DNA of 45,337 nucleotides from a virus. Each line of letters starts with the position of its first letter. Within the stretch, counting starts at the first letter, position 1. Where the stretch lies: IMG/VR virus record IMGVR_UViG_3300042368_000839, positions 1 to 45,337 of that record. One strand, written 5' to 3'. Positions 6,079 to 43,701 of the stretch are shown here, one piece after another. Under the pieces are notes generated by a model that was not told the DNA's origin, ran no database searches, and saw nothing but the letters and a program-made list of their open reading frames with translations. The translations under genes were made by a program, and so were the position numbers.

Positions 6079-8067
6079 TTGGATCTCACGAAACTCAAAG
6101 GCCCCCAGCGGCGAGAGCTGCCGATGGGTCTCCAGATTGAAGAGAAAACGGATGAGACCCTCACCTTTTCGTTTTCCAGTGAACAGCCAGTAGATCGCTG
6201 GTTTGGCCGCGAGATCCTAGTGCACGAGGAAGGCACCATGGACCTCTCGCGCCTGAACGACGGCGCACCATGGCTCTGGGGGCATGACCCTAACAAGGTC
6301 CTGGGAGTCGTTGAAAAGGCCTGGCTCGGCGACGATCGCCGGCTCTACAGCACGGTGCGGTGGTCGCCCAACACCACTGAGCGCGGAACTGAGGAGTTCC
6401 GTCGCCGCGTCGATATTGAAGCCGGCATTACGAAAAACGTCTCGTTCGCCTACAGCATTGACGACATCGAAGAGCGCAGCGGCGACTTTTACGTGACTAG
6501 CTGGAAGGCCCTGGAAGTCTCCAGCGTCAGCGTCCCCGCCGATCAGACCGTAGGCCTGGGCCGCGCCATGGATGAGCCGGCGGCTGAGCCTGAGCCTGCT
6601 GCTGAGCCCACCCCGGAGCCCTCCGCACCGGCAGAGCCGACCGTGACGGCTCACGATGAGGCAATCAAGGCAGCCGTTAGTCAGGCCCTCCATAGCCTGA
6701 CAGCACAGACCGCCGAGCGGACTGACACCCCTGTTCAGACTCTCATGACCACTGAAACGATCAACGTGGAGGAGGTGGCGCAATCCGCTCGCATTGCTGA
6801 GCGTGAGCGCGTCGCGTCCATCAAATCAATGTGCGACCAGTTCCAGCTTTCCGAGCTGGCCGAGAAACTCATCAATGACGACGCTTCCATCGACGCCGCC
6901 CGTGCGGTGGTGATGGAACAGATCGGCATGCGCAAGGTTTCCTTTGAGGGCCGCGTGCACGATGCCGGCGGCGCTGAGCTTGGCCTGAGCAAGCGTGAAG
7001 TGAAGCGCTACAGCTTCCTGCGCGTCGCTCAGTATTTGGCCGACCCCAACCCCCGCACTGCTGAAGCCGCCGCGTTCGAGCTGGACGTGGCCCGCGCTGC
7101 CCAGGCGAAGCACAGCCGCAGCGCCAACGGCGTGCTGATCCCCTGGGAAGTGCTGGGCTCCAGCCGCGCTGCTCAGACCCCCGGCCAGGTGGTCGGCACC
7201 TTCGGCGACGGTGGCGCACTGGTCGGCACCGATCGGCTCGATGCACAGTTCATTGATCTGATCCGCAACCGCTCCGCCTTTCTGAACAGCGGTCTGACCA
7301 TGCTCTCCGGCCTGGAGGGCAACGTTGAGATTCCCAAGAAGCTCAGCTCCAGCCAGTATTACTTCGTCGGCGAGAATGCTGAGGTTGCCAACAGCAAGCT
7401 CACCTTCGGCCTGGTGAACATGATCCCCCGGACCATCGGCGTTCGCGTGCCGATCAGCCGCCGGATGATGATCCAGAGCTCCCCCGACGTGGAGAACCTG
7501 GTACGGATCGACATGGCCGAGTCCGTCGCCTTGGGCATGGACTACACCATCGGCTACGGCACCGGCTCCAACGGCCAGCCGCTGGGCATTATCAACACCA
7601 CCGGCATCGGCAGCGTGACCCTGGGCGGCGGCACCGCCAAGGCATTCCCTGTGAGCCTCGGCGGCGACGGCTCCACCACCCACAACTGCGGCGACTGGGG
7701 CGACTACGTGGACCTGGAAACCGAACTGGCGATTGACAACCTCGACGCCGGCTCGATGCGCTACACCGGCAACAGCGTGGTGCGCGGCGCCCTGAAGCAG
7801 ACCCTGAGGGCATCCTCGGCTGGCTCTGACTACATCATGACCGATGCCGGCACTGTGAACGGCTACCAGTTCACCGTGTCCAACCAGATGCAGATCAACG
7901 ATGTTCTGTTCGGCAACTTTGCCGATTGCGTGGTGGGCATGTGGAGCGGCCTGGATGTGGTGGTTGACCCCTACACCCAGAGCGCCAGCGGCCAGGTAAT
8001 CCTGACCGTGCATCAGGACTTCGACGTGGCGGTTCGCCGCCCGCAGTCCTTCGCTCTGGGCACCTGA
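6079..8067 (+). CDS. Prohead protease-major capsid protein fusion (HK97 family)
   Basis: One 662-residue chain that provides both the maturation protease and the shell subunit. Residues 1-165 match HK97-type prohead protease: SFSSEQPVDRWFGRE, the likely catalytic His69 in LWGHD, Ser122 in NVSFAYS and the EVSSVSVPAD signature. A Pro/Ala/Glu linker (166-190) and a charged helical scaffold-like part (190-360) follow. The rest is the HK97-fold capsid protein (GGALVGTDRLDAQFIDLIRN, GVRVPISRRMM, GTGSNGQPLGII). The start is TTG at 6079; ATG at 6124 would remove residues before MGLQIEEK. I prefer TTG because related proteases carry similar N-terminal residues. Presumably the chain cleaves itself to release mature capsid protein. 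Such fusions are known in other phages. Confidence 0.93.
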   Translation: MDLTKLKGPQRRELPMGLQIEEKTDETLTFSFSSEQPVDRWFGREILVHEEGTMDLSRLNDGAPWLWGHDPNKVLGVVEKAWLGDDRRLYSTVRWSPNTTERGTEEFRRRVDIEAGITKNVSFAYSIDDIEERSGDFYVTSWKALEVSSVSVPADQTVGLGRAMDEPAAEPEPAAEPTPEPSAPAEPTVTAHDEAIKAAVSQALHSLTAQTAERTDTPVQTLMTTETINVEEVAQSARIAERERVASIKSMCDQFQLSELAEKLINDDASIDAARAVVMEQIGMRKVSFEGRVHDAGGAELGLSKREVKRYSFLRVAQYLADPNPRTAEAAAFELDVARAAQAKHSRSANGVLIPWEVLGSSRAAQTPGQVVGTFGDGGALVGTDRLDAQFIDLIRNRSAFLNSGLTMLSGLEGNVEIPKKLSSSQYYFVGENAEVANSKLTFGLVNMIPRTIGVRVPISRRMMIQSSPDVENLVRIDMAESVALGMDYTIGYGTGSNGQPLGIINTTGIGSVTLGGGTAKAFPVSLGGDGSTTHNCGDWGDYVDLETELAIDNLDAGSMRYTGNSVVRGALKQTLRASSAGSDYIMTDAGTVNGYQFTVSNQMQINDVLFGNFADCVVGMWSGLDVVVDPYTQSASGQVILTVHQDFDVAVRRPQSFALGT

Positions 8068-8683: not shown

Positions 8684-9043
8684 ATGATCCAGGAAATCCC
8701 CGATGATTTCCTGCTGGCTGACTTCGGCTCCAGCGTCACTGCTGGGGCCGTTGTTGGTTTGGGGTTTATGGACCGCGCTAGCCAGATCATTATGAATGAC
8801 AACGTGGTGACGGTGGACTATGCGCTGACTGCCAGGACTGATCAGTTCGGCGGTTTGCAGTATGGCGACCAGGTGCAGCACGAAGGGCAGACATACAGGC
8901 TGCAGCATGAGCCGCTACGGCTAGCTGATGGCCGGTTCTGCGTGATGGTGCTGGAGCTAGTGCAGGAGGTCGCCACCTGCCTGGTGACGCTGAGCGGCCT
9001 GCGGATCACGACCCTGAATAACAAGCAACTCCGCATTCTGTAG
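8684..9043 (+). CDS. Head-tail joining protein, FII-like
   Basis: A 119-residue beta-rich protein in the position of lambda FII, which caps the portal and binds the tail. The segment VTVDYALTARTDQFGGLQYGD followed by QVQHEGQTYRLQHEPLRLADG resembles the FII/neck pattern of a strand pair and a 'G-x-x-Y-R' turn. The last 25 residues (ATCLVTLSGLRITTLNNKQLRIL) are an unusual extension. It follows the previous gene by two bases and precedes the fibre gene by two. Assignment is by order and pattern. Confidence 0.55.
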   Translation: MIQEIPDDFLLADFGSSVTAGAVVGLGFMDRASQIIMNDNVVTVDYALTARTDQFGGLQYGDQVQHEGQTYRLQHEPLRLADGRFCVMVLELVQEVATCLVTLSGLRITTLNNKQLRIL

Positions 9044-11830: not shown

Positions 11831-11977
11831 ATGCCCTACCTGATCCGCTTCACCGCGGCCGTTGCACTGGTGGCCGGCCTGCTGGTCTGGCTGCTGAGTG
11901 CCGTGCCCCTGCTGGTGGCGCTGGGCGTCGCGGTCGTCTGCGGCTGGGTGGTGTTCGATCTGGTGCAGCCTTTTTAG
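11831..11977 (+). CDS. Small membrane protein
   Basis: A 48-residue protein (MPYLIRFTAAVALVAGLL...) made almost entirely of two hydrophobic stretches around the turn LLSAVPLL, ending CGWVVFDLVQPF. It starts seven bases after the previous stop and ends ten bases before the tail terminator gene. Codons are strongly GC-ending like the neighbours. The function is unknown; holin-like behaviour is possible but its place among structural genes argues against a lysis role. Confidence 0.5.
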   Translation: MPYLIRFTAAVALVAGLLVWLLSAVPLLVALGVAVVCGWVVFDLVQPF

Positions 11978-11986
11978 CCTGACCTT

Positions 11987-12436: not shown

Positions 12437-12440
12437 GTCC

Positions 12441-12459
12441 GTAGCCTGAGGCTAGGACG
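12441..12459 (+). promoter_or_regulatory. GTAGCCTGAG element with stem-loop, candidate -10 box
   Basis: TAGCCTGA at 12442-12449 lies between the tail terminator stop and the next ATG. TAGCC and GGCTA pair around TGA, and flanking GTCC and GGAC extend the stem. TAGCCT also fits the TANNNT form of a sigma-70 -10 hexamer. The same string recurs before other genes. Confidence 0.4.
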
Positions 12460-14260: not shown

Positions 14261-14604
14261 TCGACGCGGCGCGGTTCCTCGCCGCTGCCGCGAAGGGCGA
14301 CCCAGCCGACGATGGCAAGGATGCGGCTGATGCTGCAGCCATGTTCGGCCTGGCGGTGCCTGAGGTAGAGCGGCGGCCGGAGACGTTCGGCCTGCTGGCG
14401 GAAAACGTCGAGGCGATCGGGTGGTTTATGAAGCTGCAGACCCAGTGGCGGATGGGGATGAATGGCCCTGTGGGGCTGGACTATCAGGTGTTCTTCCTGT
14501 GGGCCAAGGATGAGGGCGTGAAACGCCAGGACCGGCTGTGGCTGCTGGAGGATCTGCGGTTGGTGGAGCGGGAGTTCCTGGGGGTGATGAGGGCGGATCC
14601 GTAG
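13805..14604 (+). CDS. Tail assembly chaperone GT frameshift product
   Basis: Read by -1 shift at 14251-14257, the chain continues KKLIDAARFLAAAAKGDPADDGKDAADAAAMFGLAVPEVE and ends at 14604. The joined protein has the G domain followed by a T domain with EAIGWFMKLQTQWRMGMNG and EGVKRQDRLWLLEDLRLVE. In lambda-like phages the minor GT form and the major G form are both needed in a fixed ratio. The T part has no credible start of its own, the frame after the shift matches exactly, and the gene order is right, so the shift is well supported. Confidence 0.85.
14251..14257 (+). promoter_or_regulatory. -1 ribosomal frameshift slippery heptamer
   Basis: AAAAAAC in zero-frame phase A-AAA-AAC, directly before the TGA of the G gene. 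It is the canonical class of -1 heptamer and lies where lambda-like phages shift. Confidence 0.85.
14266..14285 (+). other. Stimulatory hairpin for the frameshift
   Basis: GCGGCG (14266-14271) pairs with CGCCGC (14280-14285) around an eight-base loop, eight bases downstream of the slippery heptamer. Spacing and stability suit a ribosome-pausing element. Confidence 0.55.
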
Positions 14605-14635
14605 GCTGATCTCAGGAATGGCGATCGGATAATCA

Positions 14636-22872: not shown

Positions 22873-22946
22873 CCTACCCCAGCTCCCGCACCCCTGGCAA
22901 GTATCCCGCCAGGGCGTTCAGCGGGTCGCTGCTCAGCGTGCGGTGA
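22869..22946 (+). CDS. Possible very short ORF after the J-like gene
   Basis: GTG at 22869 overlaps the J stop and runs 25 residues (MTYPSSRTPGKYPARAFSGSLL...). It spans the hairpin at 22892-22914. Composition is GC-ending like real genes, but nothing else supports translation. Confidence 0.25.
   Translation: MTYPSSRTPGKYPARAFSGSLLSVR
22892..22914 (+). other. Perfect hairpin after the J-like gene, no T run
   Basis: CCCTGGC (22892-22898) pairs with GCCAGGG (22908-22914). Without a T tract it is not a classical terminator but may stabilise mRNA ends or attenuate read-through. Confidence 0.4.
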
Positions 22947-22963
22947 GTAGCCTGAGATGCAGG
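22946..22963 (+). promoter_or_regulatory. TAGCCTGA element before tail gene
   Basis: TAGCCTGA at 22948-22955 sits 21 bases before the ATG at 22977, and a strong ribosome site GGAGG follows at about 22962-22966. It matches the element found before other genes. Confidence 0.35.
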
Positions 22964-22976
22964 AGGGCGCCAGCTG

Positions 22977-23417
22977 ATGGGTTACTACACAGGCCGAACC
23001 GGGGCACTGGTCTTCAACGGCAAACCCGTTGCGAAGGTGCAGAGCTGGTCTGTGGAAACCAGCGTTGATCTGCTGCCCACCGCTGACCTAGGCGCTGATG
23101 CGCGGTCGTTTGTCCCATCGCTAAAGGGCGCAACGGGCAGTGCCACCCTGATGTACTACCGGCTGGAGCCGGGCGAGTCGGCGCAGAAAACGCAGTTCAC
23201 CGCGCTACTGGCCAAAATTCACAAGCGGGGCGCCATCACCGAACAGGATCGAGTGTTCTTGGAGCTGGACGTAGACACCGGCGGCATTGACGACATCAAG
23301 ATGTACGCCTACATCACCAACGCCGTGATCGGCTCGGCGGTGGGTGAGCTGGTGGTGGTGCCGATTCAGTTCACGATGGACGGAGACTTTGACGAGGCCA
23401 TCAACCAGGCCAACTGA
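22977..23417 (+). CDS. Tail-tube-like accessory tail protein
   Basis: A 146-residue protein beginning MGYYTGRTGALVFNGKPVAKVQSWSVET, a tube-protein style start (strand, turn, strand) followed by SLKGATGSATLMYYRLEPGES and TMDGDFDEAINQAN, the end of many tail-tube or tube-like proteins. It lies downstream of the tip protein, not beside the main tube gene, so it could form a specialised ring or an outer tail layer. The start ATG has a GGAGG ribosome site. The stop overlaps the next ATG (TGATGA). Confidence 0.6.
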   Translation: MGYYTGRTGALVFNGKPVAKVQSWSVETSVDLLPTADLGADARSFVPSLKGATGSATLMYYRLEPGESAQKTQFTALLAKIHKRGAITEQDRVFLELDVDTGGIDDIKMYAYITNAVIGSAVGELVVVPIQFTMDGDFDEAINQAN

Positions 23418-24306: not shown

Positions 24307-24330
24307 TCCGTAGCCTGAGCCTGTGGACGG
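24307..24330 (+). promoter_or_regulatory. TAGCCTGA element before fibre gene
   Basis: TAGCCTGA at 24311-24318 flanked by GTCC and GGAC, much like the copy at 12441. It precedes the fibre start at 24349, which has no evident strong ribosome site. Confidence 0.35.
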
Positions 24331-24348: not shown

Positions 24349-26796
24349 TTGGCTGATCAGCGGATAACCCAGCTCACGGCCCTGTCAAAGGCGGGTGCGG
24401 CGGCTAATGATGTGGTGCCCATCGCCGACATCTCCGCCAGCGAGACCAAGAAAATCACGCTGAAAGATCTGGTCGCCGCCGGCATCGACCTGGTGGACGC
24501 CGGGGAGATCGACCTGGAAAAGCTGGATCAGACCAGCACCACCAAGCTGGGTGCTGCGGCGATCGGCGATGGCGTGCTCACCGCCGCCAAGATGGCCGCC
24601 GATGCGGTCACAGCCGTTGCGGTCACAGCCCCCAGCACGGGAAACCATCGCGGCCGTGGGTGGCTGCACAGCGGCACCGGCAATCTGCAGGTGTGGGACG
24701 GGGCAGCGTTCCAGCAGGTGGTGATGCCCACCGCCGGCATCGGTGATCTGCAGGTGACCGCCGGCAAATTGGCTGATGGTGCTGTGACCACCGCGAAGGT
24801 GTCGCCGCTCGGTTCGGCCGCCTATGCCGCCGGATCGGTGAATACCGCCGCGCTGGCGGATCTGAACGTGACCAGCGGCAAGCTGGCGGATGGGGCGGTG
24901 CTGGCCGACAAGATCGGCACGGGTGCTGTCATCACGGCCAAGCTGGGCGCCGGTGCGGTGACCTACGACCGCATTCAGAACGTCTCTGCTACCGATCGAC
25001 TGCTGGGCCGCAGCTCTGCCGGTGCGGGGCCGGTTGAGGAAGTGCCGCTGACTGCTGCTGGCCGCGCCCTGATCGCTGGCGTGGATGCTGCAGCGCAGCG
25101 CAGCACACTAGGCCTGGGAACGCTGGCGACAGCATCCGGCACCTGGACGGACGGATCGACGTTCGCAGGCACCAGCTCGGGCACTAACACCGGCGATCAG
25201 ACCATCACCCTCACTGGTGACGTAACCGGCACTGGCACTGGGACGTTCGCCGCAACGATTGCCGATGGGGCAATCACCGAACTGAAGTACGCCGCACTGA
25301 GTATCCCCACCGGCGCGGTGCAGGATGACTCGATCACCGCGGCCAAGCTGGCGGATCAATCCTCTGCGGTGGTGAGCAACGGATCGCCATCAGGCGATGG
25401 GGCATTCATCGGGCAGCAGTGGTTCAACGCTGCCACGGGTGTGGTGTGGACATGGACCGGCAGCGAGTGGCAGGAACACCAAGCACCGACCATCCCTGAA
25501 TCTGGCGTTCCCGACCTGAACGCCAGCAAGATCACGGCTGGCGAGTTCCCGACCGATCGCCTAGCGGATGACGCCGTGACCGGCGTCAAGCTGGCGGATT
25601 ACAGCGTGGGGAAACTGGGCGAGGCAATTCCAGTTGCTGATTACATCAGCCAGCTGTATTTCAACCCATTGGATAAAGCCTTCTTCATGTGGGATGGCAA
25701 CGTCTGGCAGCCGATCGGGATCAGCACCGGCGCGGTCAAGTTTGCCGGCACCTATGACGCCTCCGACAATGAGGTGGCCAGCACCACCGCCGAGGGCGCA
25801 ACGCTGGGCCTAGTGGTCGGCAACGCATTGCCTGCCGCTGCAGTAGCCAACTCGGGCTACTACCTGGTGGTGAGCAAAAGCGGCACCGGCACCAGCCCGG
25901 CGCCTGCTGTTGCGCTGGCGCCCCCGGACCTGCTGCTTTCCACCGGCACGGCATGGGTCGAGGTGGATACATCGACCGGCTATACCACACAGACCGCCAG
26001 CGGTGTGGATTTTGTCCCTACGGGGCAGGTCGCTGCCACCAACGTGCAGCTGGCGATCGAGGAGGTGAGCAACGAGTGCCGTAACGCCAGCAACCTGACC
26101 AGCGGCACCCTGGCGGTCGCCAGGGGCGGCACCAACGTGGCCAGCTACACCAAGGGCGATCTGCTGGCTGCCAGCGCCGCCACGACCCTCACCAAGTTGA
26201 CGGTAGGTACCAACGGTCAGGTGCTGGTAGCGGATAGCAGCACGGCCACGGGCCTGCGGTGGTCCACCAACATCACCGGCAACGCCGCCACCGTCACCAA
26301 TGGCGTCTACACCAGCGGCGCCCAAACCATCGGCGGGGCCAAGACGTTCTCCAACGCACTGGTGAGCGATGGCACCTTCACCGCTAACGGCACGGTGTTC
26401 AGCGCCGGCATCCGCACCAATACCACTACAGGGGTGAGCGCCAACGTATTTCTGAACACCGCCAACGATCAGGTGCAGCGGGTCACGTCATCGCGGAAAT
26501 ACAAGATCGAGATCGAGACGGCACCGCTGGCCGAAAGCCGCCGGATCCTGTCGGCCACTAGGCCGGTGAGCTACCTGCCCAACCCGGAGAACACCAGCGA
26601 CGATCCGACCATCAGGGTGTGGGGCCTGATCGCTGAAGAGGTGGCGGAGTATGCGCCGGAGATGGTGATGTGGGGCCTCGGCGGGCAGGCAGAGGGCGTG
26701 AGCTACGACCGCTTCGGCGTGCACTTGATCAACGTGGCGAACGACCATGAGGCCAGGATCGCCGCGCTGGAATCAGCGCTGCAGTCTCTAGCCTGA
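24349..26796 (+). CDS. Tail fibre with C-terminal S74 intramolecular chaperone
   Basis: An 815-residue trimeric-fibre protein. The start is TTG at 24349. Residues 1-60 (MADQRITQLTALSKAGAAANDVVPIADI) form the usual attachment domain. The middle is a repetitive shaft (KLADGAVTTAKV, KLADGAVLADKI, TSGTLAVARGGTN) with many TG-rich segments. The last 110 residues are a peptidase S74 chaperone (VTSSRKYKIEIET... with the Ser and Lys of the self-cleavage pair, then VWGLIAEEVAEYAPEMV and a heptad end INVANDHEARIAALESAL). This domain helps trimer folding, then cuts itself off. Receptor binding is expected in the part just before it. Confidence 0.88.
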   Translation: MADQRITQLTALSKAGAAANDVVPIADISASETKKITLKDLVAAGIDLVDAGEIDLEKLDQTSTTKLGAAAIGDGVLTAAKMAADAVTAVAVTAPSTGNHRGRGWLHSGTGNLQVWDGAAFQQVVMPTAGIGDLQVTAGKLADGAVTTAKVSPLGSAAYAAGSVNTAALADLNVTSGKLADGAVLADKIGTGAVITAKLGAGAVTYDRIQNVSATDRLLGRSSAGAGPVEEVPLTAAGRALIAGVDAAAQRSTLGLGTLATASGTWTDGSTFAGTSSGTNTGDQTITLTGDVTGTGTGTFAATIADGAITELKYAALSIPTGAVQDDSITAAKLADQSSAVVSNGSPSGDGAFIGQQWFNAATGVVWTWTGSEWQEHQAPTIPESGVPDLNASKITAGEFPTDRLADDAVTGVKLADYSVGKLGEAIPVADYISQLYFNPLDKAFFMWDGNVWQPIGISTGAVKFAGTYDASDNEVASTTAEGATLGLVVGNALPAAAVANSGYYLVVSKSGTGTSPAPAVALAPPDLLLSTGTAWVEVDTSTGYTTQTASGVDFVPTGQVAATNVQLAIEEVSNECRNASNLTSGTLAVARGGTNVASYTKGDLLAASAATTLTKLTVGTNGQVLVADSSTATGLRWSTNITGNAATVTNGVYTSGAQTIGGAKTFSNALVSDGTFTANGTVFSAGIRTNTTTGVSANVFLNTANDQVQRVTSSRKYKIEIETAPLAESRRILSATRPVSYLPNPENTSDDPTIRVWGLIAEEVAEYAPEMVMWGLGGQAEGVSYDRFGVHLINVANDHEARIAALESALQSLA

Positions 26797-29075: not shown

Positions 29076-29113
29076 CCCCAGCTCTGCAGACTGAGGCAGC
29101 AACCGCAGCATCC

Positions 29114-29305
29114 GTGGGTCCAGAGTTCGTCGTTGCCGCCCTTGGCTTGTGCGGCGCAGGTGTCACAGCCCTCTGGAAGATCGCCAATGGGCTAGGCAGA
29201 TTTGAGGCCCGCACCACCACCATCCTTGGGGGGATTCAGGAAATGCTCAGGGACCACGAAGAGCGGCTTAGGGACGTGGAGCGGAGGGCGGAGGGCGGCC
29301 GATGA
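29114..29305 (+). CDS. Small membrane-anchored coiled-coil protein, lysis candidate
   Basis: A 63-residue protein from GTG 29114. N-terminal membrane segment (EFVVAALGLCGAGVTALWKIA) is followed by a coiled coil (MLRDHEERLRDVERRAE). The arrangement, and its place at the start of the lysis region, fit a spanin-like or holin-accessory protein. The stop overlaps the next ATG. No clear family. Confidence 0.5.
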   Translation: MGPEFVVAALGLCGAGVTALWKIANGLGRFEARTTTILGGIQEMLRDHEERLRDVERRAEGGR

Positions 29306-30613: not shown

Positions 30614-31800
30614 CTTACGCCACCGTTCGCGGCGCCGCCGAGCATCTCGCCCGCGCCGGCACCATCACCCCTCACCAGCTGGCTGCCCTGGGCCGACTGG
30701 ATGAACGCCTGAGGGATCACCCGGACATCATGCAGGAGTTCACGGACGGCTGGCGGGCGCAGGGCAGCCCTGCAGCGCCGGCGCCCGTGGCCGTTTGGCT
30801 GGCACCGGCCCGCACGATCGTGCGCGAGTTCGAGGGCTGCCACCTGAAGGCCTACCTGTGCCCGGCCAATGTGTGGACCGTGGGATGGGGCTCGACCACC
30901 ATCGCCGGCAAGGTGGTGAGAGAGGGTCAGAGCATCACCCAGGCGCAGGCCGATGCGCAACTGGACGCCGATCTGCAACGGTTCTATGACGCCCTCGCCC
31001 GGGCGATCCCTGCGGTCGCTGGCTGGCCACCGAACAGGGCCGCCGCGCTGGTGTCGTGGACCTACAACGTGGGAGTGGGGGCGATGCAGGACAGCACCCT
31101 GCGGCGGCGCATCCTGGCGGGCGAGGATCCGGCGCAGGTGGTGGCGGCAGAGCTCCCCAGGTGGAACAAGGCGGACGGCAACCCGCTGCCCGGGCTGACC
31201 CGCAGGCGGGCTGCAGAGGTGGCGCTGTTTGTGGGGCAGCAGCTGCAGCAGCAGACCGGCTACGGCAACCCGCTGCAGGTGCCCTGGTACTCGCAGATGG
31301 ATTCAGCCGACCGCGCCCAAGCCGCCCGGATGTGTTTCAGCTCCAGCAATGCCATGCTGCTGCAGTACCTCAAACCCGGCACCCTCAAGGGCGCCAATGG
31401 CGACGATCAGTATCTCAAGCGAGTCCAGCAGTACGGCGACACGACCGACCCGACCGCGCAGATCCGGGCGCTGTCGAGCTTTGGGATCCGGGCGAAGTTC
31501 ACCAAGGTGGCAGGGTTCGCCGATCTGGAGCAGCAGATCAACCGCGGCGTGCCTGTGCCCTGCGGGTTCCTGCATCGCGGCCCGGTGTCGGCCCCATCCG
31601 GCGGCGGCCACTGGCTGATCGTGGTGGGCTACGACCGGGACGATCTGATCGTTCACGATCCCTTCGGTGAAGCCGATCTAGTAAACGGCACCACCCTGGG
31701 CGGCGTGGCCCGGTTCGCCAGATACAGCCGGCGAAACTTCGGCTCGCGGTGGATGGTGGAAGGCGCGAATACGGGATGGGCAGTCATCGCTGAGCGCTGA
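30610..31800 (+). CDS. Two-domain endolysin: lysozyme plus C39-like peptidase domain
   Basis: A 396-residue lysis enzyme. Residues 65-215 are a GH24 phage lysozyme with the E-8aa-C-5aa-T catalytic set (Glu75, Cys84, Thr90: EFEGCHLKAYLCPANVWTVGWG) and the ALVSWTYNVG segment. Residues 222-390 are a C39-like papain-fold domain: WYSQMD start, MCFSSSNAMLLQYL with Cys241, GGHWLIVVGY with His333, and VHDPFG with Asp349. The first domain cuts glycan strands; the second may cut peptide or bind wall. N-terminal residues 1-60 are a helical domain of unknown role. No signal peptide is evident, so release depends on the holin. Confidence 0.88.
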   Translation: MTYATVRGAAEHLARAGTITPHQLAALGRLDERLRDHPDIMQEFTDGWRAQGSPAAPAPVAVWLAPARTIVREFEGCHLKAYLCPANVWTVGWGSTTIAGKVVREGQSITQAQADAQLDADLQRFYDALARAIPAVAGWPPNRAAALVSWTYNVGVGAMQDSTLRRRILAGEDPAQVVAAELPRWNKADGNPLPGLTRRRAAEVALFVGQQLQQQTGYGNPLQVPWYSQMDSADRAQAARMCFSSSNAMLLQYLKPGTLKGANGDDQYLKRVQQYGDTTDPTAQIRALSSFGIRAKFTKVAGFADLEQQINRGVPVPCGFLHRGPVSAPSGGGHWLIVVGYDRDDLIVHDPFGEADLVNGTTLGGVARFARYSRRNFGSRWMVEGANTGWAVIAER

Positions 31801-32144
31801 TGCCCTTCGATCACCAGATCGACCAGACCGAACTACAGCCCAAGAAAGCCACCAAGGCCCGATTCAGGCGCAGGATCTTCGCCGAGTGGGACCACGCCTG
31901 CGCATACTGCGCCGACCCAGCCGACACGCTCGACCACGTGCTGCCGCGCTCCAGGGGCGGGCTGACGGTGGCTGAGAACCTGGTGCCGGCATGCCGCCGG
32001 TGCAACGGGGCCAAGTCATCCACCGACTGGCGGGAGTGGTTCAGGGCCCAGGCCTGGCACTGCATCGAGCGGGAGGGCAGGATTGATGGATGGCTAGGGG
32101 GTGGTCTGCACACTGAAGGCATAGCCCAGTCTCCCCCGTCGTGA
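31800..32144 (+). CDS. HNH endonuclease (third in the window)
   Basis: A 114-residue protein with the compact HNH pattern: CAYC, LDHVLPRSRGG, ENLVPACRRCNGAK, then DWREWFRAQ. ATG overlaps the endolysin stop by one base. Related in sequence style to the HNH part of the 5258-6043 protein (LTVEHVLALTKGG, ACTACNSSK), so the two may share origin. Probably a mobile endonuclease inserted after the lysis operon. Confidence 0.9.
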   Translation: MPFDHQIDQTELQPKKATKARFRRRIFAEWDHACAYCADPADTLDHVLPRSRGGLTVAENLVPACRRCNGAKSSTDWREWFRAQAWHCIEREGRIDGWLGGGLHTEGIAQSPPS

Positions 32145-33315: not shown

Positions 33316-33513
33316 CTAGGGCGTCGGGATCCCGCGGCTGGCGAGCATCATCCTTAGCACCGCGATGGCTCGCTCCCCTGAGTAGCACCTGACCCGCTTG
33401 CCCAGGCCAACCACAACCCAGCAGGCGCCGCCACGGGCGTCACGCTCCACGGTGATGTAGGGCGGGGGCTGCACAGGTGGCTGCACAGACTGAACCAACT
33501 GCTGCGCGGACAT
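33316..33513 (-). CDS. Small hypothetical protein, divergent pair (left)
   Basis: A 65-residue protein (MSAQQLVQSVQPPVQPPPYITVERD...). The longer frame to 33684 opposes a likely gene, so I use the ATG at 33513. Strand-rich ending (ACWVVVGLGKRVRCYSGERAIAVLRMM). It converges with the metallophosphoesterase, four bases apart, and its start shares the CATG at 33511-33514 with the next gene on the other strand. Function unknown. Confidence 0.5.
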   Translation of the reverse strand: MSAQQLVQSVQPPVQPPPYITVERDARGGACWVVVGLGKRVRCYSGERAIAVLRMMLASRGIPTP

Positions 33514-33784
33514 GCTGGGCCTCGATCTCACCCTCAGCCTGTCGAGCTCCTTCGAGATGGAGCGCGACCGCCGCGCCGCCGCGCACATGAGCCGGGACCA
33601 GCTGGCGGAGCGCTGCGATGAGCTGATCCAGGCCTGGTACCAGCAGCAGCACCTGATCGTGGAGCTGCAGCGCAAGGCGGCCAACCTGCAGGTGGAACTT
33701 GCGCTGAAGGGGGCGCCGCCGTTGGGTGAGCCGACGGGTGAGCATCACCGGTGGGCGCGGGAGCTGGGGAGGCGGCTGCCGTGA
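33512..33784 (+). CDS. Small coiled-coil hypothetical protein, divergent pair (right)
   Basis: A 90-residue protein. The ATG at 33512 overlaps the divergent start; a second ATG at 33557 (MERDRRAAAHMSRDQL) is an alternative. A helical, charged core (SRDQLAERCDELIQAWYQQQHLIVELQRKAANLQVEL) indicates a coiled coil, followed by a Pro/Gly tail. No known family. Confidence 0.5.
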   Translation: MLGLDLTLSLSSSFEMERDRRAAAHMSRDQLAERCDELIQAWYQQQHLIVELQRKAANLQVELALKGAPPLGEPTGEHHRWARELGRRLP

Positions 33785-33812
33785 TCAACACCCGCCAAGC
33801 GGGTCACTCATT

Positions 33813-33886
33813 CACCCAGTCCGAGCCAACGGATAGGACGGCTCCGCTGCTGCGGGGCGATGCAGGTTCAATTCCTGCCTGGGTGC
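33813..33886 (+). tRNA. tRNA-like sequence, probably degenerate
   Basis: A 74-base stretch with a perfect acceptor stem (CACCCAG 33813-33819 with CTGGGTG 33879-33885) and a textbook T arm (GCAGG, loop TTCAATT, CCTGC at 33862-33878). A D-arm-like sequence (CAACGGATAGG) is present. The anticodon arm is unusual: the best stem GCTCC/GGGGC encloses eight bases (GCTGCTGC) rather than seven, and the variable region is only three bases. If T33 is the T in CTGCTG the anticodon would read GCT (Ser), but the long variable arm of serine tRNA is absent. Either a decayed tRNA or a non-canonical one. TCACCA follows. Confidence 0.45.
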
Positions 33887-34945
33887 TCACCAACTCCCCC
33901 CAGCAGCAGCGATCCGCAGCCGATCGCCGAGGCAGACCCAGTTCCGAGGAAATCCCCCAACCCTGCGCAGCGCCGGGGACGTGGGCTTCACCCTTTCAAT
34001 CGGCACCAGCACCAGCTGATCAGGCCGCTCGCGGCGCCGCCTGCTCCGATCCTTCGGCTCCACCGTCCCCCGTTCCACCGCCACCAGAACCAGCTGCACC
34101 GACTGCGACGCCAGTGCCGCCTGCAGCCGCTCCAGTCGCACCTCCAAAGCCCGTGTGCTCAGGCCTTCCTGCTGGGCCAGCTCAGGCCGCGGCACCTCCA
34201 CCCCGTCGAGGCCCCAGGCCAGGGACAACAACCTGCGATCCTGCGGCGCCAACCTGGCGATCAGGCCACGCAGCTGCTCCGCCTGGCGCCAGCGTTCGCG
34301 CTGCTCCTCTTCATCCTCTGGCGTGCGGTCGTAGGTGGCGCACAGGCTGCCCAGCTCTAGCCCGTCATCCGTCACCACCTGGTCAAGGCTGGCGACCGAT
34401 CGGCCGTTCTCAACCACCTGCTCCAGCACCTTCACGCTGACGCCCAGCTCTGCGGCGATCTCCGCCTGCGTTGGCGTGCGGTTTAGCTCCAGCTCCAGCC
34501 GGCTGGTGATGGCCTGCAGCTTCGCTAGATGCTGGCAGTGGCTGCCGGGGATGGCGATCGCCCTGCTGTACTGGTCAATGTGCCGGTTCACCCCCTGCCG
34601 GATCCACCACCAGGCATACGTGCTGAATCTGTAGCCCTTAGCGGGATCGAACCGCTCTGCTGCCGTCAGCAAGGCCATGTTCCCGGCCTGGATCAGATCC
34701 TCGCGATCCTGCCCGGCGAACAGGCGGCTGCGGCGGGAGATGTACGCCACCACCAGCCGCAGATTCGCTGAGACGAAGCGATCCCGCGCCCGCATGCCCC
34801 GGCGCCGGATGCCTGGCGGGCACTCGCCGGGATGGGTCTGCCATTGCTGGATGGCCGTGCCGAGTTCGATTTCCTCGGCTGGCGTGAGCAGGGGTATGCG
34901 CCCGATCGAGTCGAGCCACCAGGACTGGTTGGAGCTGGCTGGCAC
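33887..34945 (-). CDS. Sigma-70 family factor, cyanobacterial group 2 type
   Basis: A 352-residue RNA polymerase sigma factor starting GTG at 34945 (MPASSNQSWWLDSIGRIPLL). Region 1.2: IGRIPLLTPAEEIELGTAIQ. Region 2: FVSANLRLVVAYISRRS, GQDREDLIQAGNMALLTAAERFD, YRFSTYAWWWIRQGVNRHI with the -10-binding aromatic residues. Region 3: LELELNRTPTQAEIAAELGVS. Region 4: LLSLAWGLDGVEVPRPELAQQEGLSTRALEVRLERL, more divergent than region 2. A C-terminal tail of about 65 residues (VAVERGTVEPKDRSRRRRERPDQ...) is not found in ordinary sigma factors. It could direct host polymerase to phage promoters, or alter host transcription. It is alone on its strand between two rightward gene groups. Confidence 0.93.
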   Translation of the reverse strand: MPASSNQSWWLDSIGRIPLLTPAEEIELGTAIQQWQTHPGECPPGIRRRGMRARDRFVSANLRLVVAYISRRSRLFAGQDREDLIQAGNMALLTAAERFDPAKGYRFSTYAWWWIRQGVNRHIDQYSRAIAIPGSHCQHLAKLQAITSRLELELNRTPTQAEIAAELGVSVKVLEQVVENGRSVASLDQVVTDDGLELGSLCATYDRTPEDEEEQRERWRQAEQLRGLIARLAPQDRRLLSLAWGLDGVEVPRPELAQQEGLSTRALEVRLERLQAALASQSVQLVLVAVERGTVEPKDRSRRRRERPDQLVLVPIERVKPTSPALRRVGGFPRNWVCLGDRLRIAAAGGSW

Positions 34946-35035
34946 CGGGTCGAGTGTGACGATTTGCCCCCATCATAGGGTGCGAAAGGGGTTCCGATCC
35001 GGTATGGTGTGTGGGCGTTCACCACTCGCTACGCC
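34946..35035. promoter_or_regulatory. Divergent promoter region between sigma factor and right operon
   Basis: On the reverse strand TATGAT lies at 34972-34977, suitably placed as a -10 box for the sigma gene. On the forward strand TATGGT at 35003-35008 could serve the rightward operon. No good -35 hexamer is evident on either side. It is the only intergenic space between two divergent operons here. Confidence 0.45.
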
Positions 35036-35344
35036 ATGCCACAGGAATGGATCACAGACCGTCTGCCGACAGAGGCGGATGGGGATTGTGACGGGGATGT
35101 GCGGATGGTTCCAGCCCCGCACGCGGACCCTGATGATTACCTGCTAGTCCACTGGAGCTACGTGGGCGATGCCGTTCCGTGGCAGCACACCAGCTGCTGG
35201 AAGCCGCCCGCCAACCCCATCCCCACCGAGCCCTTGCTGACGTTTCGTCAGCGCGTCACCGCGCTGGAGCGGCGGGTGGCGGAGCTGGAGGCGTTCAAGA
35301 AGGCGCTAATGCAGCCATCCGTCCGCTACTACCTGGGGAATTGA
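35036..35344 (+). CDS. Hypothetical protein, first gene of the right operon
   Basis: A 102-residue protein from ATG 35036 (MPQEWITDRLPTEADGDCDGDVRM...). An earlier ATG at 35009 would overlap the promoter region. An N-terminal part with DGDVRMVPAPHADPDDYLLVHWSYVG, a type of small phage protein I have seen before, and a C-terminal helical coiled coil (RQRVTALERRVAELEAFKKAL). Function unknown. Confidence 0.6.
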   Translation: MPQEWITDRLPTEADGDCDGDVRMVPAPHADPDDYLLVHWSYVGDAVPWQHTSCWKPPANPIPTEPLLTFRQRVTALERRVAELEAFKKALMQPSVRYYLGN

Positions 35345-35346
35345 CC

Positions 35347-35955
35347 ATGACCACCACCCTCTACGCCCTAACCGGCGACGCTCTCAGGCTCCAAAACCAG
35401 ATCGACGAGGCCGCCGCCGATCTGTTCTCTGATGACCCCGCAGTGGTGGCCGCGGCCACTGCCACGCTGGAAGGCCTGATCTCGGCCGAGGCCGACAACA
35501 AACAGGCCATCCTCTCCAAGGCCGACGCCTGGTGCTGGGTGATTGACTCGCTCAGGGCCCGGCACGCTGCCCGCAAGGCTCGCGCTCAGGCGCTGGCAGA
35601 GCTGGCCGCTGCTGATGAGCAGCAGGCGGATGCGCTGCAGGATCGGTTGGTCCAGGCGCTGCAGAAGGCCATCCCTGATGAGACCTCCTACCAGCTGCCT
35701 GAGCACAAGCTGGCCAGCCGGAAAACCACGGTTGTGGTGGTGGACTGCGAGCCGGAGGACCTGCCGGAGATGTTCCAGCGGATCAAGATCGAGGCCGACA
35801 AGACCGCGATCAAGGACGCAATCAAGACCGCTTTGGTCGCAGCGGTGAAGGCTGCGCCGGATGAAGAGGCCAAGGCCAAGGCCTACGCAGCCGCCGTGGT
35901 GGGGACCGTGCCCGGCTGCTTCCTGATGGAGCGACGGAGCTGGAGTATCAAATGA
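35347..35955 (+). CDS. Siphovirus Gp157-like protein
   Basis: A 202-residue protein. The open frame begins earlier, but ATG 35347 (MTTTLYALTGDALRLQNQIDE) is the family start. The remainder follows the Gp157 pattern: EADNKQAILSKADAWCWVIDSL, helical core, YQLPEHKLASRKTTVVVVDCEPEDLPEMF, KADKTAIKDAIK-like stretch and the GCFLMERRSWSIK end. Gp157 proteins are coiled-coil early proteins of siphophages, often next to recombination genes; their role is not settled. An extra Ala/Lys-rich insert occurs near 160-185. Confidence 0.88.
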   Translation: MTTTLYALTGDALRLQNQIDEAAADLFSDDPAVVAAATATLEGLISAEADNKQAILSKADAWCWVIDSLRARHAARKARAQALAELAAADEQQADALQDRLVQALQKAIPDETSYQLPEHKLASRKTTVVVVDCEPEDLPEMFQRIKIEADKTAIKDAIKTALVAAVKAAPDEEAKAKAYAAAVVGTVPGCFLMERRSWSIK

Positions 35956-38427: not shown

Positions 38428-38780
38428 TGCTCCCCTGCCAGTGGTGCAACGGGACCACCCGCGTGGTGGACACTAGGTTGATCTCCCAGGGCCAGCGCCG
38501 CTGGCTGCGGTGCCAAGACTGCGGCCAGCTCACCCGATCAATCGAAACCTATGAAAGCGGCCGCCGGATTCCGGGGCCGCTTCCTGGTGTCAGGCGCCGG
38601 CGGCCGGCCCGCCAAGGGGCCAGCAACGGGCGATCGGTGCTCACCGATGCCGACATTCGCCGGCTCAGGGAGCAGGCCGCGGCAGGGACGCCCAGGGCCG
38701 TGCTGGCTAAGCGGTATGGGGTGACGCCCAACCACATCACTCGAATCGTGCGGCGGCGGGCCTGGCGGCACGTAGCCTGA
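38427..38780 (+). CDS. Zinc-ribbon plus helix-turn-helix protein, NrdR-like N-terminus
   Basis: A 117-residue protein. N-terminal zinc ribbon: C4-x2-C7 and C29-x2-C32, with VVDTRLI between, close to the zinc part of NrdR regulators. The ATP-cone is absent. A basic linker (GVRRRRPARQG) leads to a C-terminal HTH (LTDADIRRLREQAAAGTPRAVLAKRYGVTPNHITRIVRRRAW) of the type in resolvases and sigma region 4. One base overlaps the dcd stop. It could regulate dcd or other genes of the operon. Confidence 0.75.
   Translation: MLPCQWCNGTTRVVDTRLISQGQRRWLRCQDCGQLTRSIETYESGRRIPGPLPGVRRRRPARQGASNGRSVLTDADIRRLREQAAAGTPRAVLAKRYGVTPNHITRIVRRRAWRHVA
38773..38780 (+). promoter_or_regulatory. TAGCCTGA element at gene end
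   Basis: Located at the stop of the preceding gene and three bases before ATG 38784. Fits the same -10-like pattern as other copies. Confidence 0.3.
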
Positions 38781-38783
38781 GCC

Positions 38784-38993
38784 ATGGAGCACCTCTTCAC
38801 TACCGAACTGGTCATCCGCGACGGGATCCCCGTTTGGCTGATCCAGGGGTGGGGAGTCGAGGCTGTCAGTGCCAGCCGTCACGCGGCGCTGCGGTCGTTT
38901 CGCTGGAAATGCCAACGACGCGGACTGCAGCTCCCAGCAGGGAGTGAGCAGCCGCGGCGCGGGCCTTCGGAGTGTGATGAGCCGGGGGTGTGA
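38784..38993 (+). CDS. Small hypothetical protein
   Basis: A 69-residue protein: MEHLFTTELVIRDGIPVWLIQGWGVEAVSASRHAALRSFRWKCQRR, strand-turn-strand-helix, then a Pro/Gly/Gln tail. It is the last rightward gene of the operon before the leftward block. No known family. Confidence 0.5.
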   Translation: MEHLFTTELVIRDGIPVWLIQGWGVEAVSASRHAALRSFRWKCQRRGLQLPAGSEQPRRGPSECDEPGV

Positions 38994-40440: not shown

Positions 40441-40623
40441 TCAAGCAGCCAACATCCGCCGAACCGTGGTGCGTGAACACCCCAGTCGATCAGCGATGCG
40501 CTGCTGTGTCCAGCCATCGCGGCGCCAGCGGCGGGCGCGTTGCTGGCGGGATTCCGTCAGCCACAACAGGAACAGCGCGGGCAATAACAGCAGCACCAAG
40601 AAGGTGCAGAAAATCGTGGTCAT
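40441..40623 (-). CDS. Membrane-anchored helix-turn-helix protein
   Basis: A 60-residue protein: membrane segment (IFCTFLVLLLLPALFLLWL), a basic linker (ESRQQRARRWRRDG) and a resolvase-type HTH (WTQQRIADRLGCSRTTVRRMLAA). The start ATG 40623 is chosen because the longer frame would add an unlikely Arg/Trp-rich stretch. A -10-like TATGAT lies at 40664-40669 on the reverse strand. An HTH tethered to the membrane is unusual for a phage of this size. Confidence 0.7.
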   Translation of the reverse strand: MTTIFCTFLVLLLLPALFLLWLTESRQQRARRWRRDGWTQQRIADRLGCSRTTVRRMLAA

Positions 40624-40663
40624 GGCAAGCAATGGCGAGTGGCGGGCCTGTGCCCGTAGCAAA

Positions 40664-40669
40664 ATCATA
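40664..40669 (-). promoter_or_regulatory. -10-like element before the membrane HTH gene
   Basis: TATGAT on the reverse strand, identical to the hexamer in front of the sigma factor gene. Spacing to the ATG at 40623 is about 40 bases. No clear -35 hexamer. Confidence 0.4.
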
Positions 40670-40699
40670 CCGCAGCGGTTCCGGTTCCGCACCCCTCGG

Positions 40700-43072
40700 T
40701 CAGTAGTGAAACCAATCCACCACCGACTCCAGGCGACTGGCCCAGCTGTGCCGGCGGATGATCTCGACAACCTCTTCGGCGCTCATCACGTCCGGCGAAT
40801 TCAGCGCCTTGCGGACGTTCTTCGTAAAGCCGCCCTGACTGCGCGTCACTTTCAGCTGCGGCAGATCCTCCGGCAGGTTGGGGATGTCGGTGCTGATGAT
40901 CGGGATCCCCAGCGTGGCGTACACCCAGCATTTCAGCGGGTTCATCGCCGCCGTGAGATTCGTTTTCAGGTGCGGGATGATCGCCACGTCAAACGTCGCC
41001 AGGTAGGTGCGCAGCTCGTCATAGGGCACTGGGCCCACGTAGCGAATGTTCCGCCGCTGTGGCAGCTGGGTGGCCACGTGCGTGCTGCCGATCAGCAGCA
41101 CTAGGTCGTCAGGGTTTTTGGCTGCTACGTGCTCCACCAATGGCCAGTCCAGTTTCGACTCCAGGTTTCCGGCATAGCCGATGATCCCCCGGAAATTGCC
41201 GGGCGCTACCAACTGCTCCCGCAGGTCAGCCACCTCTGCCGCGTCCGGTGCGCCGGTGAAATCCACGCCATTGGCCACTACCTGCGCCTTCGTGGGGCTG
41301 AGTCTGCCGATGCTCTGCAGCGTGTGCCGGCAGTTGTAAAGGCCCATGTCGGCCAGATCAAGGATGGCGCGGTAGTGCTCCGTGAGCTCTGTTTTCCGCT
41401 CGGCGGATGTGTTGGGCCATGCCCTGTGATCGTCTACCACGTCGCCTATCACGTAGTCCGTGGGCAGGGCTGCGGCGATCCGCTCGGCGTGCCGATAGTA
41501 CGGATAGACCCAGAGCCCCACCTTGGCGCCGGGGAAGCGCGCTAGGGCCTGCTCCACCAGCCCTTGGCAGTACCGCTCGATGAAGTCGCCCTGTTCAGCC
41601 ACGCTGAGCCCTGCAGGCATCACTGGCGTGCGGATGGCAAGCTTGCCTCTGTCCAGCAGCCCGACCCTTTTCCGCTGCGCGTAACGGTGCAACAGCCGGT
41701 GATGCCGGTTCTGGCTTTGCTCCAGCTTGCGCAGGTCCAGCGTGCTAAGCGGTTTCTCCACCAACAGCACCTGGTCCACGTCATTCCGGCTGGCCAGGTA
41801 CTTTGCCACCATGTCCACCCGCCTGCCAAACACCCCAGCGTCGTTCTGTTTCCAGAGCATCAAGATGATCCGCCGACCAGGCTCAGGTAGCCCGATCAAT
41901 GATCTGGCGGCGTAACTGATCGCTCGGCGGCTGGGCTGGGACAGGAGGTGGCGCATGGTGGTAGCTCCAGAGGCATAGGACAGGTGCTGGTGCGCGAGGC
42001 GCTGATTCACCTCCCGATCGGCAGCGCTCAGTGGCTGCAGCTGGCGGATCGCGTCGGGCAGTTCGGCGGGCGACTCCACAAACGAAATCCCCCGAAACCC
42101 CCAGTCCGCCAGCATCTGCAGCGGCGGGGTAGGTGTGGCGATCAGCCTGATGCCGGCCGCCAGCGCGTCGCACGCTTTGGCCGGCAGCTGATACCGGCTG
42201 GCCTCGCGGGACTGATCCTGCAGCAGCACCGCCGCATCAGCTAGCGCGAGGCAGGCGGGCATAGCCGCGAATGCCACGCTGTCGATCATTGCGGCCTGAT
42301 CGCCGGCTGCGCGGGTGATGTCGTTCACAATCCCTTGGTCGGGAATGCGGCCGATGAATGCCGCGCCAGCACCTGGCACCTGGGCCACGGCCTGAGCGAT
42401 GACGTCGAGGCCCTTGTGCCGCTGCGGCGTGCCTAGGAACATCACCAGCGGGGTGCAGCGGCGGCGGATCTCCAGCAGCTCAGTGGGCGGCTCAGCCTGC
42501 GGCGATTGAAACGCATCCAGGTCGCGCAGGTGGGCGATGATCTCCCCGCCGTGCAGTGCCTGCAGCTCGGTGTTGCAGGTGATGATGTGATCAGCGGCCT
42601 TGGTGAGCTGCTGTGCCGCCAGCGTCCAAAACGGCGAGTAGGGGGCCTCGCCAAGCCGTTCGGGGAACTGCTGCTGCAGCGCCAGCGGCGAGAGCGGGGC
42701 ATCGTTCGGATCAATGAACGCCAACTCGTGATCATCGATGTCAACGATCAGCCGGGCGCCGTTGCGCTCAGCGATGGCAATGCCCAGCAGCACTGACGGC
42801 AGCCGGGCTTTGCAGGCGATCACCACGTCTGCATCGGTGGCCGCGGCGACGCGGCGGCAGCGATGAATCAGCGCCGCGACGGTTTTGGGCTCAGGGATCA
42901 CAGTGATCGGCTCACCTCGCAACGGCGCCCACACCTCACGGCCTAGGTGGGAGAACCCGAAGGCGATCAGCTGGACCTCAGAGAATGCCAGCGCGGCGGC
43001 ACGGGCGATCAGATGGGCCCGGCCGATGCAGTTGTGGTGGGCGTCCCACCCAATGACGATGCAGCGAGTCAT
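40700..43072 (-). CDS. Tandem glycosyltransferase, two GT-B (GT4-like) units in one chain
   Basis: A 790-residue protein. The frame opens at 43186, but ATG 43072 gives a clean Rossmann start MTRCIVIGWDAHHNCIGRAH, so I use it. First unit (1-360): LIVDIDDHELAFIDP, HIITCNTELQALHG, MFLGTPQRHKGLDVIAQAVAQV and LADAAVLLQDQ... with the usual donor-binding region. Second unit (about 390-790): IILMLWKQNDAGVFGRRVDMVAKYLASR, DYVIGDVVDDHRAW, VVANGVDF, GYAGNLESKLDWPLVEHVA and FDVAIIPHLK...AMNPLKCWVYATLGIPII. Two successive transferases suggest a disaccharide or two-step modification. Possible targets are host surface polysaccharide, virion proteins or modified DNA bases. The methyltransferase lies in the same leftward block. 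Target is unknown. Confidence 0.85.
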   Translation of the reverse strand: MTRCIVIGWDAHHNCIGRAHLIARAAALAFSEVQLIAFGFSHLGREVWAPLRGEPITVIPEPKTVAALIHRCRRVAAATDADVVIACKARLPSVLLGIAIAERNGARLIVDIDDHELAFIDPNDAPLSPLALQQQFPERLGEAPYSPFWTLAAQQLTKAADHIITCNTELQALHGGEIIAHLRDLDAFQSPQAEPPTELLEIRRRCTPLVMFLGTPQRHKGLDVIAQAVAQVPGAGAAFIGRIPDQGIVNDITRAAGDQAAMIDSVAFAAMPACLALADAAVLLQDQSREASRYQLPAKACDALAAGIRLIATPTPPLQMLADWGFRGISFVESPAELPDAIRQLQPLSAADREVNQRLAHQHLSYASGATTMRHLLSQPSRRAISYAARSLIGLPEPGRRIILMLWKQNDAGVFGRRVDMVAKYLASRNDVDQVLLVEKPLSTLDLRKLEQSQNRHHRLLHRYAQRKRVGLLDRGKLAIRTPVMPAGLSVAEQGDFIERYCQGLVEQALARFPGAKVGLWVYPYYRHAERIAAALPTDYVIGDVVDDHRAWPNTSAERKTELTEHYRAILDLADMGLYNCRHTLQSIGRLSPTKAQVVANGVDFTGAPDAAEVADLREQLVAPGNFRGIIGYAGNLESKLDWPLVEHVAAKNPDDLVLLIGSTHVATQLPQRRNIRYVGPVPYDELRTYLATFDVAIIPHLKTNLTAAMNPLKCWVYATLGIPIISTDIPNLPEDLPQLKVTRSQGGFTKNVRKALNSPDVMSAEEVVEIIRRHSWASRLESVVDWFHY

Positions 43073-43701
43073 GGCGTTGGGGTGGGTAGTGGCAGGGCGT
43101 GGGGGGGGAGCAGCCAGCCGCCGTAGACCATTGCTGGGTTGGCCATCTGCCAGTAGGGCGGGCCGTCTGGTGGGCACCACCAGCATTCGCCATCAAGATC
43201 ACGCCACCCTTTCTCGCGCTCCCAAGGCCGCTCAGCCACGGGCACCGGCTCGGTGGTGGGGCGGGCGAAGTGGGTGAGGATGGCGCCACATAGATCGGCA
43301 ACATCTTCGGCGCAGACATTGCCGATCAGTCGCGCAGTAGGTTCCCAGCCGAAAGCGCACTCTCGAACCGCCGTTGCAATGGATGCGATTCGCTCCGTCA
43401 CCCCCTCCGGCTCGGGTTCGCCAACACCGAAATAGGGGCAGGCTGGATCACCGAATCGACCGCAATCGTCCACGTTTGCCGGGGCGATACCGCACATAGG
43501 ACACTCCCGAACTTGAACGGGCTTTCCGTCGCCAAGGTTCCGCCAATGAAACAGCCCATCCCCCTCCGGCTCGGGCTGGGCCAGGGCGGCGCGGGCGCGG
43601 TTTACAGCGGCCTGAAACCTTAGGCCATCATTGGTGTCGATTACATCGTTTTCAACTGCCCCTAGCAATCGTTGCAGTTCGGCGCGGTAATCAGTGCTCA
43701 T
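43069..43701 (-). CDS. Hypothetical phage protein with Cys-rich middle
   Basis: A 210-residue protein. Helical start (YRAELQRLLGAVEN...), Cys-rich middle (CPMCGIAP, CGRFGDPACPYF), and a conserved-looking end (VPVAERPWEREKGWRDLDGECWWCPPDGPPYWQMANP) that I know from small phage proteins of unknown role. It overlaps the glycosyltransferase start by four bases. Confidence 0.7.
   Translation of the reverse strand: MSTDYRAELQRLLGAVENDVIDTNDGLRFQAAVNRARAALAQPEPEGDGLFHWRNLGDGKPVQVRECPMCGIAPANVDDCGRFGDPACPYFGVGEPEPEGVTERIASIATAVRECAFGWEPTARLIGNVCAEDVADLCGAILTHFARPTTEPVPVAERPWEREKGWRDLDGECWWCPPDGPPYWQMANPAMVYGGWLLPPHALPLPTPTP

Follow-up and report, generated by a model that had tools for sequence, protein, structure and literature searches.

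A putative late sigma factor of phage lineage and its candidate -35-less promoters in a probable freshwater cyanosiphovirus

RESULTS AND DISCUSSION

The sigma gene and its surroundings

The stretch of DNA analyzed here (the window) is a 45,337-base IMG/VR virus record whose structural genes, of the siphovirus type, lie on the plus strand, where Pfam recognized terminase gpA, a lambda-type portal, and a tape measure protein. Its hosts are likely freshwater picocyanobacteria. Directly past the lysis region, on the opposite strand, lies a gene of the sigma-70 family (Table 1). That the phage carries a sigma gene, as the initial annotation had proposed, was confirmed by the 352-amino-acid open reading frame and by Pfam regions 1.2, 2, and 3, since Sigma70_r1_2, Sigma70_r2, and Sigma70_r3 all scored over their cut-offs. 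Foldseek matched the predicted fold to sigma chains of RNA polymerase over about 300 columns (E value of 1.7e-15). At the 3' end of the gene we observed a tRNA-like stretch (positions 33813 to 33891, CACCCAG ... CAGGTTCAATTCCTG ... CTGGGTG CTCACCA); no tRNA or Rfam RNA was found on this side of the gene by ARAGORN or Rfam. The minus strand also encodes an 828-amino-acid protein (40700 to 43186), large for a 45-kb phage, in which two stretches belong to glycosyltransferase group 1.

In region 3.0, immediately preceding region 3, the alignment showed IPGSHCQHL instead of LPVHLTEKL, and the -35 recognition helix RExxRQ of region 4.2 was replaced by STRALEVRLERLQ. Sigma70_r4 was not found by the Pfam search, in keeping with the more divergent region 4 noticed from the sequence at the outset. 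The roughly 65 extra residues noticed there also proved real, as a tail of about 70 residues whose reading frame is intact in relatives of 75 to 97% identity. The dN/dS values of this tail were 0.29 to 0.59, AlphaFold pLDDT fell below 50 at residues 284 to 337, and no confident structure was predicted from residue 281 on.

Among named proteins, the nearest (72% identity) was SLBS1_A33, the sigma factor of the Lake Bourget Synechococcus phage S-LBS1, whose gene has the same position and orientation after the lysis genes and whose tail is shorter and ends in LQLVLVEAP. IMG/VR contained at least 51 close relatives, followed by many that are more distant. We compared about 60 related viruses, sorted by their sigma factors into group A (at least 51% identity to the window protein), group B (about 39 to 44%), and group C (more distant sigma factors, mostly with an RExxRQ-like 4.2 helix; 373 kb of records).

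Table 1. Sigma gene, protein regions, and candidate promoter elements of the window, with clamp-like C termini of other phage proteins
Feature	Position	Strand	Remarks
Sigma-70 family gene P0001	33887..34945	-	352 aa, GTG start, uninterrupted ORF
Region 1.2, residues 9-35	34841..34921	-	Pfam PF00140
Region 2, residues 58-127	34565..34774	-	-10 recognition helix YAWWWIRQGVNRH; Pfam PF04542 and alignment
Region 3, residues 140-211	34313..34528	-	Pfam PF04539
Region-4-like helix-turn-helix, residues 232-280	34106..34252	-	Without RExxRQ -35 helix; AlphaFold helices 234-282, alignment
C-terminal tail, residues 281-352	33890..34105	-	Low predicted order, constrained at protein level
First tail peptide QLVLVA, residues 284-289	34079..34096	-	V283, Q284, V286, L287 invariant in 19 aligned proteins
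Second tail peptide QLVLV(P), residues 310-315	34001..34018	-	Q310, L311, L313 invariant in 19 aligned proteins
TATGAT, host-type -10-like element	34972..34977	-	Upstream of sigma gene
TCCATAGCCTGA within major head protein gene	6689..6700	+	Sole full-octamer copy of the window well inside a gene
Candidate late promoter TTTTTAGCCTGA	11971..11982	+	6 nt before tail terminator gene start (11987)
Candidate late promoter TCCGTAGCCTGA	12438..12449	+	
Variant candidate late promoter TCCGTAGGCTGA	14598..14609	+	Precedes tape measure gene
Candidate late promoter TGAGTAGCCTGA	22944..22955	+	23 nt before gene at 22977
Candidate late promoter TCCGTAGCCTGA	24307..24318	+	Precedes tail fibre gene (24349)
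Candidate late promoter TCTCTAGCCTGA	26785..26796	+	Gene boundary, next start 26817
Candidate late promoter CACGTAGCCTGA	38769..38780	+	5 nt before ATG at 38784
Second-class element CAGACTGA	29087..29094	+	About 20 nt before GTG at 29114
Second-class element CAGACTGA	33486..33493	+	Precedes small gene at 33512
Strict clamp-like C termini	G002 33570-34274, G006 33908-34183, G036 31261-31884		Oriented record coordinates
Strict clamp-like C termini	G031 35209-35922, G032 40499-41143		Oriented record coordinates

A strand-biased motif in front of late genes

The initial annotation had pointed to recurrent TAGCCT elements as phage promoters. The hexamer by itself was at chance level in the window (12 seen versus 10.0 ± 3.0 expected), and the recurrence emerged once it was extended to TCCRTAGCCTGA: the octamer TAGCCTGA was found seven times on the late strand and never on the other, with 0.75 expected for both strands summed. 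The same bias was seen in the 35 group A records (85 copies on the late strand versus 5 on the other) and in group B (16 versus 2), while group C held one copy on the late strand and none on the other. An unseeded search for late-strand words in the 35 group A records returned, among the top enriched 8-mers, mostly fragments of TCCATAGCCTGA, with CATAGCCT occurring 64 times on the late strand versus 3 on the other, and the top 7-mer upstream of genes was TAGCCTG (33 seen versus 1.9 expected). After removal of group A sites with similar flanks, 44 distinct octamer sites were left, 36 of them intergenic (12% in 200 letter permutations) and 30 no more than 60 nt from a start codon (5% in the permutations); the records are fragments, and their genes were called by an in-house script that placed 33 of 35 S-LBS1 stop codons correctly. 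The exact octamer was absent from three group A records (G019, G021, and G030), and G035 carried two copies on the wrong strand. A scan of the collection with the 15-mer TGATCCATAGCCTGA gave, among the matches listed, about the number expected by chance according to our own estimate, and was left out of the argument.

Aligned sites showed TCCR preceding and GA following TAGCCT. Upstream of TAGCCT, at distances of 45 down to 5 bases from its first T, no position of the alignment rose above 0.2 bits, and the motif has the features of a conserved -10-like element without a visible -35 element, as far as can be judged from aligned sequences. Variants substituted at A-11 or T-7 were not in excess between genes on the late strand, whereas -9 and -10 tolerated some change; it is A-11 and T-7 that are flipped out of the -10 element by a sigma factor. 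Where a start codon followed within 40 nt, it did so at 5 to 6 nt in 11 cases and at 15 nt or more in the others, never at 0 to 4 or 7 to 14 nt; by our own arithmetic, such empty spacings have a probability of about 3e-8 under a uniform distribution over 0 to 39 nt. This pattern would be expected if transcription began downstream of a -10 element, with some transcripts leaderless, and a motif 5 to 6 nt before ATG predicts leaderless late mRNAs in a cyanophage. Sites of this kind were observed at 11975 and 38773 in the window and in four other records (G020 at 2604, G023 at 2619, G024 at 4077, and G040 at 8912).

A second word, CAGACTGA(G), is also strand biased and precedes late genes in group A, most commonly at 20 to 24 nt; CAGACTGAG, of this second class, was counted 34 times on the late strand versus 2 on the other. 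It may represent a distinct promoter class, because the intermediates CAGCCTGA and TAGACTGA were not enriched in group A.

The motif follows the type of sigma factor

The single octamer of group C was found in 373 kb of records, where other words occur instead. In G042 to G044, AAACTAGG is preceded by GGA, often as GGAAAACTAGG, about 22 to 23 nt before starts, and in the records of another sigma clade (G046, G049, and G051) the upstream word is GGGGAAACCTAG. The cultured phages S-CBS1, S-CBS3, and KBS2A have sigma factors (rpsD4/RpoD-like) at the same genome position, with regions 1.2 to 3 as in the window, but these share only about 33 to 37% identity with the window protein in the aligned part and retain the canonical RExxRQ of region 4.2, and their genomes lack TAGCCTGA, save for one coding copy in KBS2A. 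The gap after terL, which contains TGATCCATAGCCTGA in S-LBS1, a copy of the motif shared with the window, has TGAGGCTATCCTTA in S-CBS1 and TGAAGCTACCCTGA in S-CBS3.

The structural genes do not explain the motif, since S-CBS1 and S-CBS3 are without it although their portal proteins are 69 to 71% identical to that of S-LBS1, whereas TAGCCTGA is still present in records of group A whose structural modules are distant or unrelated (several below 30%). For portal and head together, identity to S-LBS1 was 67 to 71% in S-CBS1 and S-CBS3 and 37 to 43% in the window (portal 43%). Most likely, then, the sigma type of the window reads TCCATAGCCTGA in front of late genes, a reading drawn from comparative sequence. 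Because helix loss and motif share the clade formed by groups A and B, the association amounts to essentially one evolutionary transition plus the contrast provided by swapped modules. Two proposals of the initial annotation gain indirect support here: altered -35 recognition, from the lost 4.2 helix and a motif without a -35 element, and the connection of the sigma factor with recurrent TAGCCT elements, provided that these are lengthened to TCCRTAGCCTGA.

Co-inheritance and recognition look alike at the level of sequence, and TCCRTAGCCTGA could instead be the site of another phage regulator, an activator or antiterminator inherited together with a sigma factor that reads other promoters; the second word CAGACTGA, not interchangeable with the first, likewise precedes late genes. 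We consider this unlikely, given that the motif resembles a -10 element in layout, with A-11 and T-7 unvarying, a discriminator base, and start-compatible spacing, that it is a single oriented box whereas many activator sites are palindromic, and that other sigma clades have single-box words of their own at a similar distance from starts. It is very unlikely that the protein is an accessory sigma factor reprogramming host metabolism rather than a late phage switch: the sigma factors of S-CBS2 and S-CBS3 alter carbon metabolism of Synechococcus elongatus when expressed, according to a review (PMC10452541), but the group A protein is unlike the S-CBS3 type used in that work, and copies of the motif cluster in front of virion genes on the late strand.

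Probable placement in an old phage lineage

A maximum-likelihood tree was built on regions 1.2 to 3, with the chromosomal sigma factors of picocyanobacteria lying outside its sampling. Groups A and B formed one phage-only clade (support of 100/98) that included S-LBS1 and uncultured relatives, group A was on a single branch (100/100), and the cellular factors, whether cyanobacterial or not, were grouped apart from the phage clade (99/99). One scan of a genome collection returned no close relatives in bacterial genomes, only matches of about 25 to 46% to ordinary sigma factors. By clade, motif, and genome position the window protein belongs with the S-LBS1-type cyanosiphoviruses, and it did not group with the cyanobacterial factors sampled in the tree, those of picocyanobacterial chromosomes not being among them.

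The description of the protein as cyanobacterial in type stands in part. Its top cellular family model was the cyanobacterial RpoD/SigA-family TIGR02997 (E value of 2.2e-52, over regions 2 and 3), and the nearest solved structures by sequence were cyanobacterial SigA (1e-34 to 1e-36, the next at about 1e-29). However, its score of 178.2 bits is well below the curated NCBIfam cut-off of 384.5, and it differs from the cyanobacterial group 2 factors of that model in lying outside their clade and in its altered regions 2.4 to 3.0 and 4.2. The initial annotation had suggested capture from a host. A recent event of this kind, with a group 2 factor of the host as source and the tail acquired later, would be favored by the best cellular model and the nearest solved sequences, but we find it scarcely credible in view of the strongly supported phage-only clade, the cellular factors placed together elsewhere, the lack of a close relative in the single collection scan, and the missed subfamily cut-off; placement among phage sigma factors is also the outcome that the initial annotation had named as speaking against its proposal. 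The phage-only clade and the scan argue for an old phage lineage rather than recent capture, within the limits of a tree that leaves picocyanobacterial chromosomal factors outside, and an origin from a cyanobacterial factor may lie far back in time.

A proposed late cascade

The host-type TATGAT upstream of the sigma gene is retained as TATRRT in most group A relatives; a scan for a full sigma-70 consensus promoter near the gene found none. The divergent gap (34946 to 35008), which separates the sigma gene from the next plus-strand gene, is itself strongly conserved in most of group A, with TATRRT facing the sigma gene and a TAnnnT-like box facing the opposite way. As this gap carries TATRRT and not the late motif, we suggest that the host's own sigma factor begins the cascade.

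Taken with the previous sections, we give a probability of roughly three in four to the reading that the window protein is a late sigma factor of phage lineage acting on -35-less late promoters. Host RNA polymerase with its primary sigma factor would transcribe the sigma gene from TATRRT in the divergent gap, and the phage protein would then dock on the host core enzyme via regions 1.2 to 3. From the comparison of sites, the resulting holoenzyme would recognize one box only and no -35 element, the box being the extended -10 sequence TCCR-TAGCCT-GA, in which A-11, T-7, and the discriminator G-6 would be required and the upstream TCCR would replace the usual TG extension. Head, tail, and lysis genes would thereby be switched on, some from leaderless mRNAs whose start codon lies 5 to 6 nt past the -10 element. 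The altered regions 2.4 to 3.0 and 4.2 are consistent with promoters at which contacts to the -10 element and its flanks are needed and those to a -35 element are not.

Single-box promoters have been described before for phage sigma factors, among them T4 gp55 and phiEco32 gp36 (PMC8948821). The T4 system resembles the one proposed here in its single -10-like late promoter with no -35 (PMC7892883 and PMC2988020). It differs in that gp55 is a small region-2 protein for which gp33 substitutes for region 4, whereas the window protein has regions 1.2 to 4. phiEco32 gp36 has another host and another motif, and the window protein, in comparison, retains a helix-turn-helix at the place of region 4.

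The C-terminal tail as a possible clamp tether

The tails of groups A and B are otherwise dissimilar, yet end in Q-L-x-L. Of 10 distinct group B tails, 7 carried the pattern Q[LMP]x[LFM] within their final 16 residues (shuffles average 0.3), as did 8 of 13 distinct tails in group A and 1 of 12 in group C, against 1.5% of other phage proteins; neither shuffled tails nor alternative first letters reproduced the Q-L-x-L ending. The second QLVLV(P) of the window corresponds to the QLxL that in relatives lies at the extreme C terminus. Several tails match the bacterial clamp-binding consensus exactly, with QLSLF (G031 and G032), QLALF (G036), QLTLL (G029 and G041), and QLVLPL (G037 and G038). As defined in PMC11139829, the strict beta-clamp motif is Q-aliphatic-x-[LM]-[FL] or Q-aliphatic-x-[LM]-x-[FL], and clamp-binding motifs sit, among other places, in disordered C-terminal tails (also PMC4549789). 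This strict form is present in the tails of G029 to G032, G036 to G038, and G041 and in 0.4% of other phage proteins, while in the window QLVLVA and QLVLVP are partial matches that fall short of it. Other phage proteins ending in strict clamp-like motifs (SVGQLALL, FQLHLLPTT) were observed in five records (Table 1).

In T4, clamp-binding motifs of gp55 and gp33 reach gp45 via linkers and couple late transcription to replication (PMC2988020 and PMC7892883). A DnaN-type phage clamp gene was found in none of 27 records, so that any clamp partner here would be the DnaN of the host, in place of the T4 clamp gp45. We therefore raise, tentatively and as a somewhat doubtful proposal, that the tail may be a tether to the host beta sliding clamp, with late -10-box promoters being clamp-activated as phage DNA replicates. 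Since the window's own peptides miss the strict form, we do not adopt it as a conclusion. If true, a logic known from T4 would have evolved inside a full-length sigma factor, and replication-coupled late transcription would have arisen outside the T4 family.

Implications for freshwater cyanophages

Sigma genes of cyanosiphoviruses had been annotated before (PMC6157547 and PMC3751600), P-SS2 was reported with two of them (PMC2784084), and, out of 153 cyanophages with sequenced genomes, 65 have an annotated sigma factor (PMC10452541). The covered portion of the S-LBS1 paper (PMC6157547) gives the gene and a generic PePPER promoter prediction and describes no late promoter motif, and in the literature, of which our coverage was incomplete, we found no description of a cognate promoter for a cyanosiphovirus sigma factor or of the QLxL tails. 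What appears to be new, as judged by comparative analysis, are the QLxL tails and a candidate cognate promoter motif that is -35-less, goes together with a remodelled region 4, and changes with the sigma clade. A gene so far annotated but not studied thus becomes a testable gene-control switch, with S-LBS1 as a ready test system, and the sigma clades, with the words that accompany them, form a natural series in which joint change in sigma factor and promoter can be followed. Together, the motif and its candidate reader would allow late transcription units to be mapped in dozens of uncultured freshwater cyanophages.
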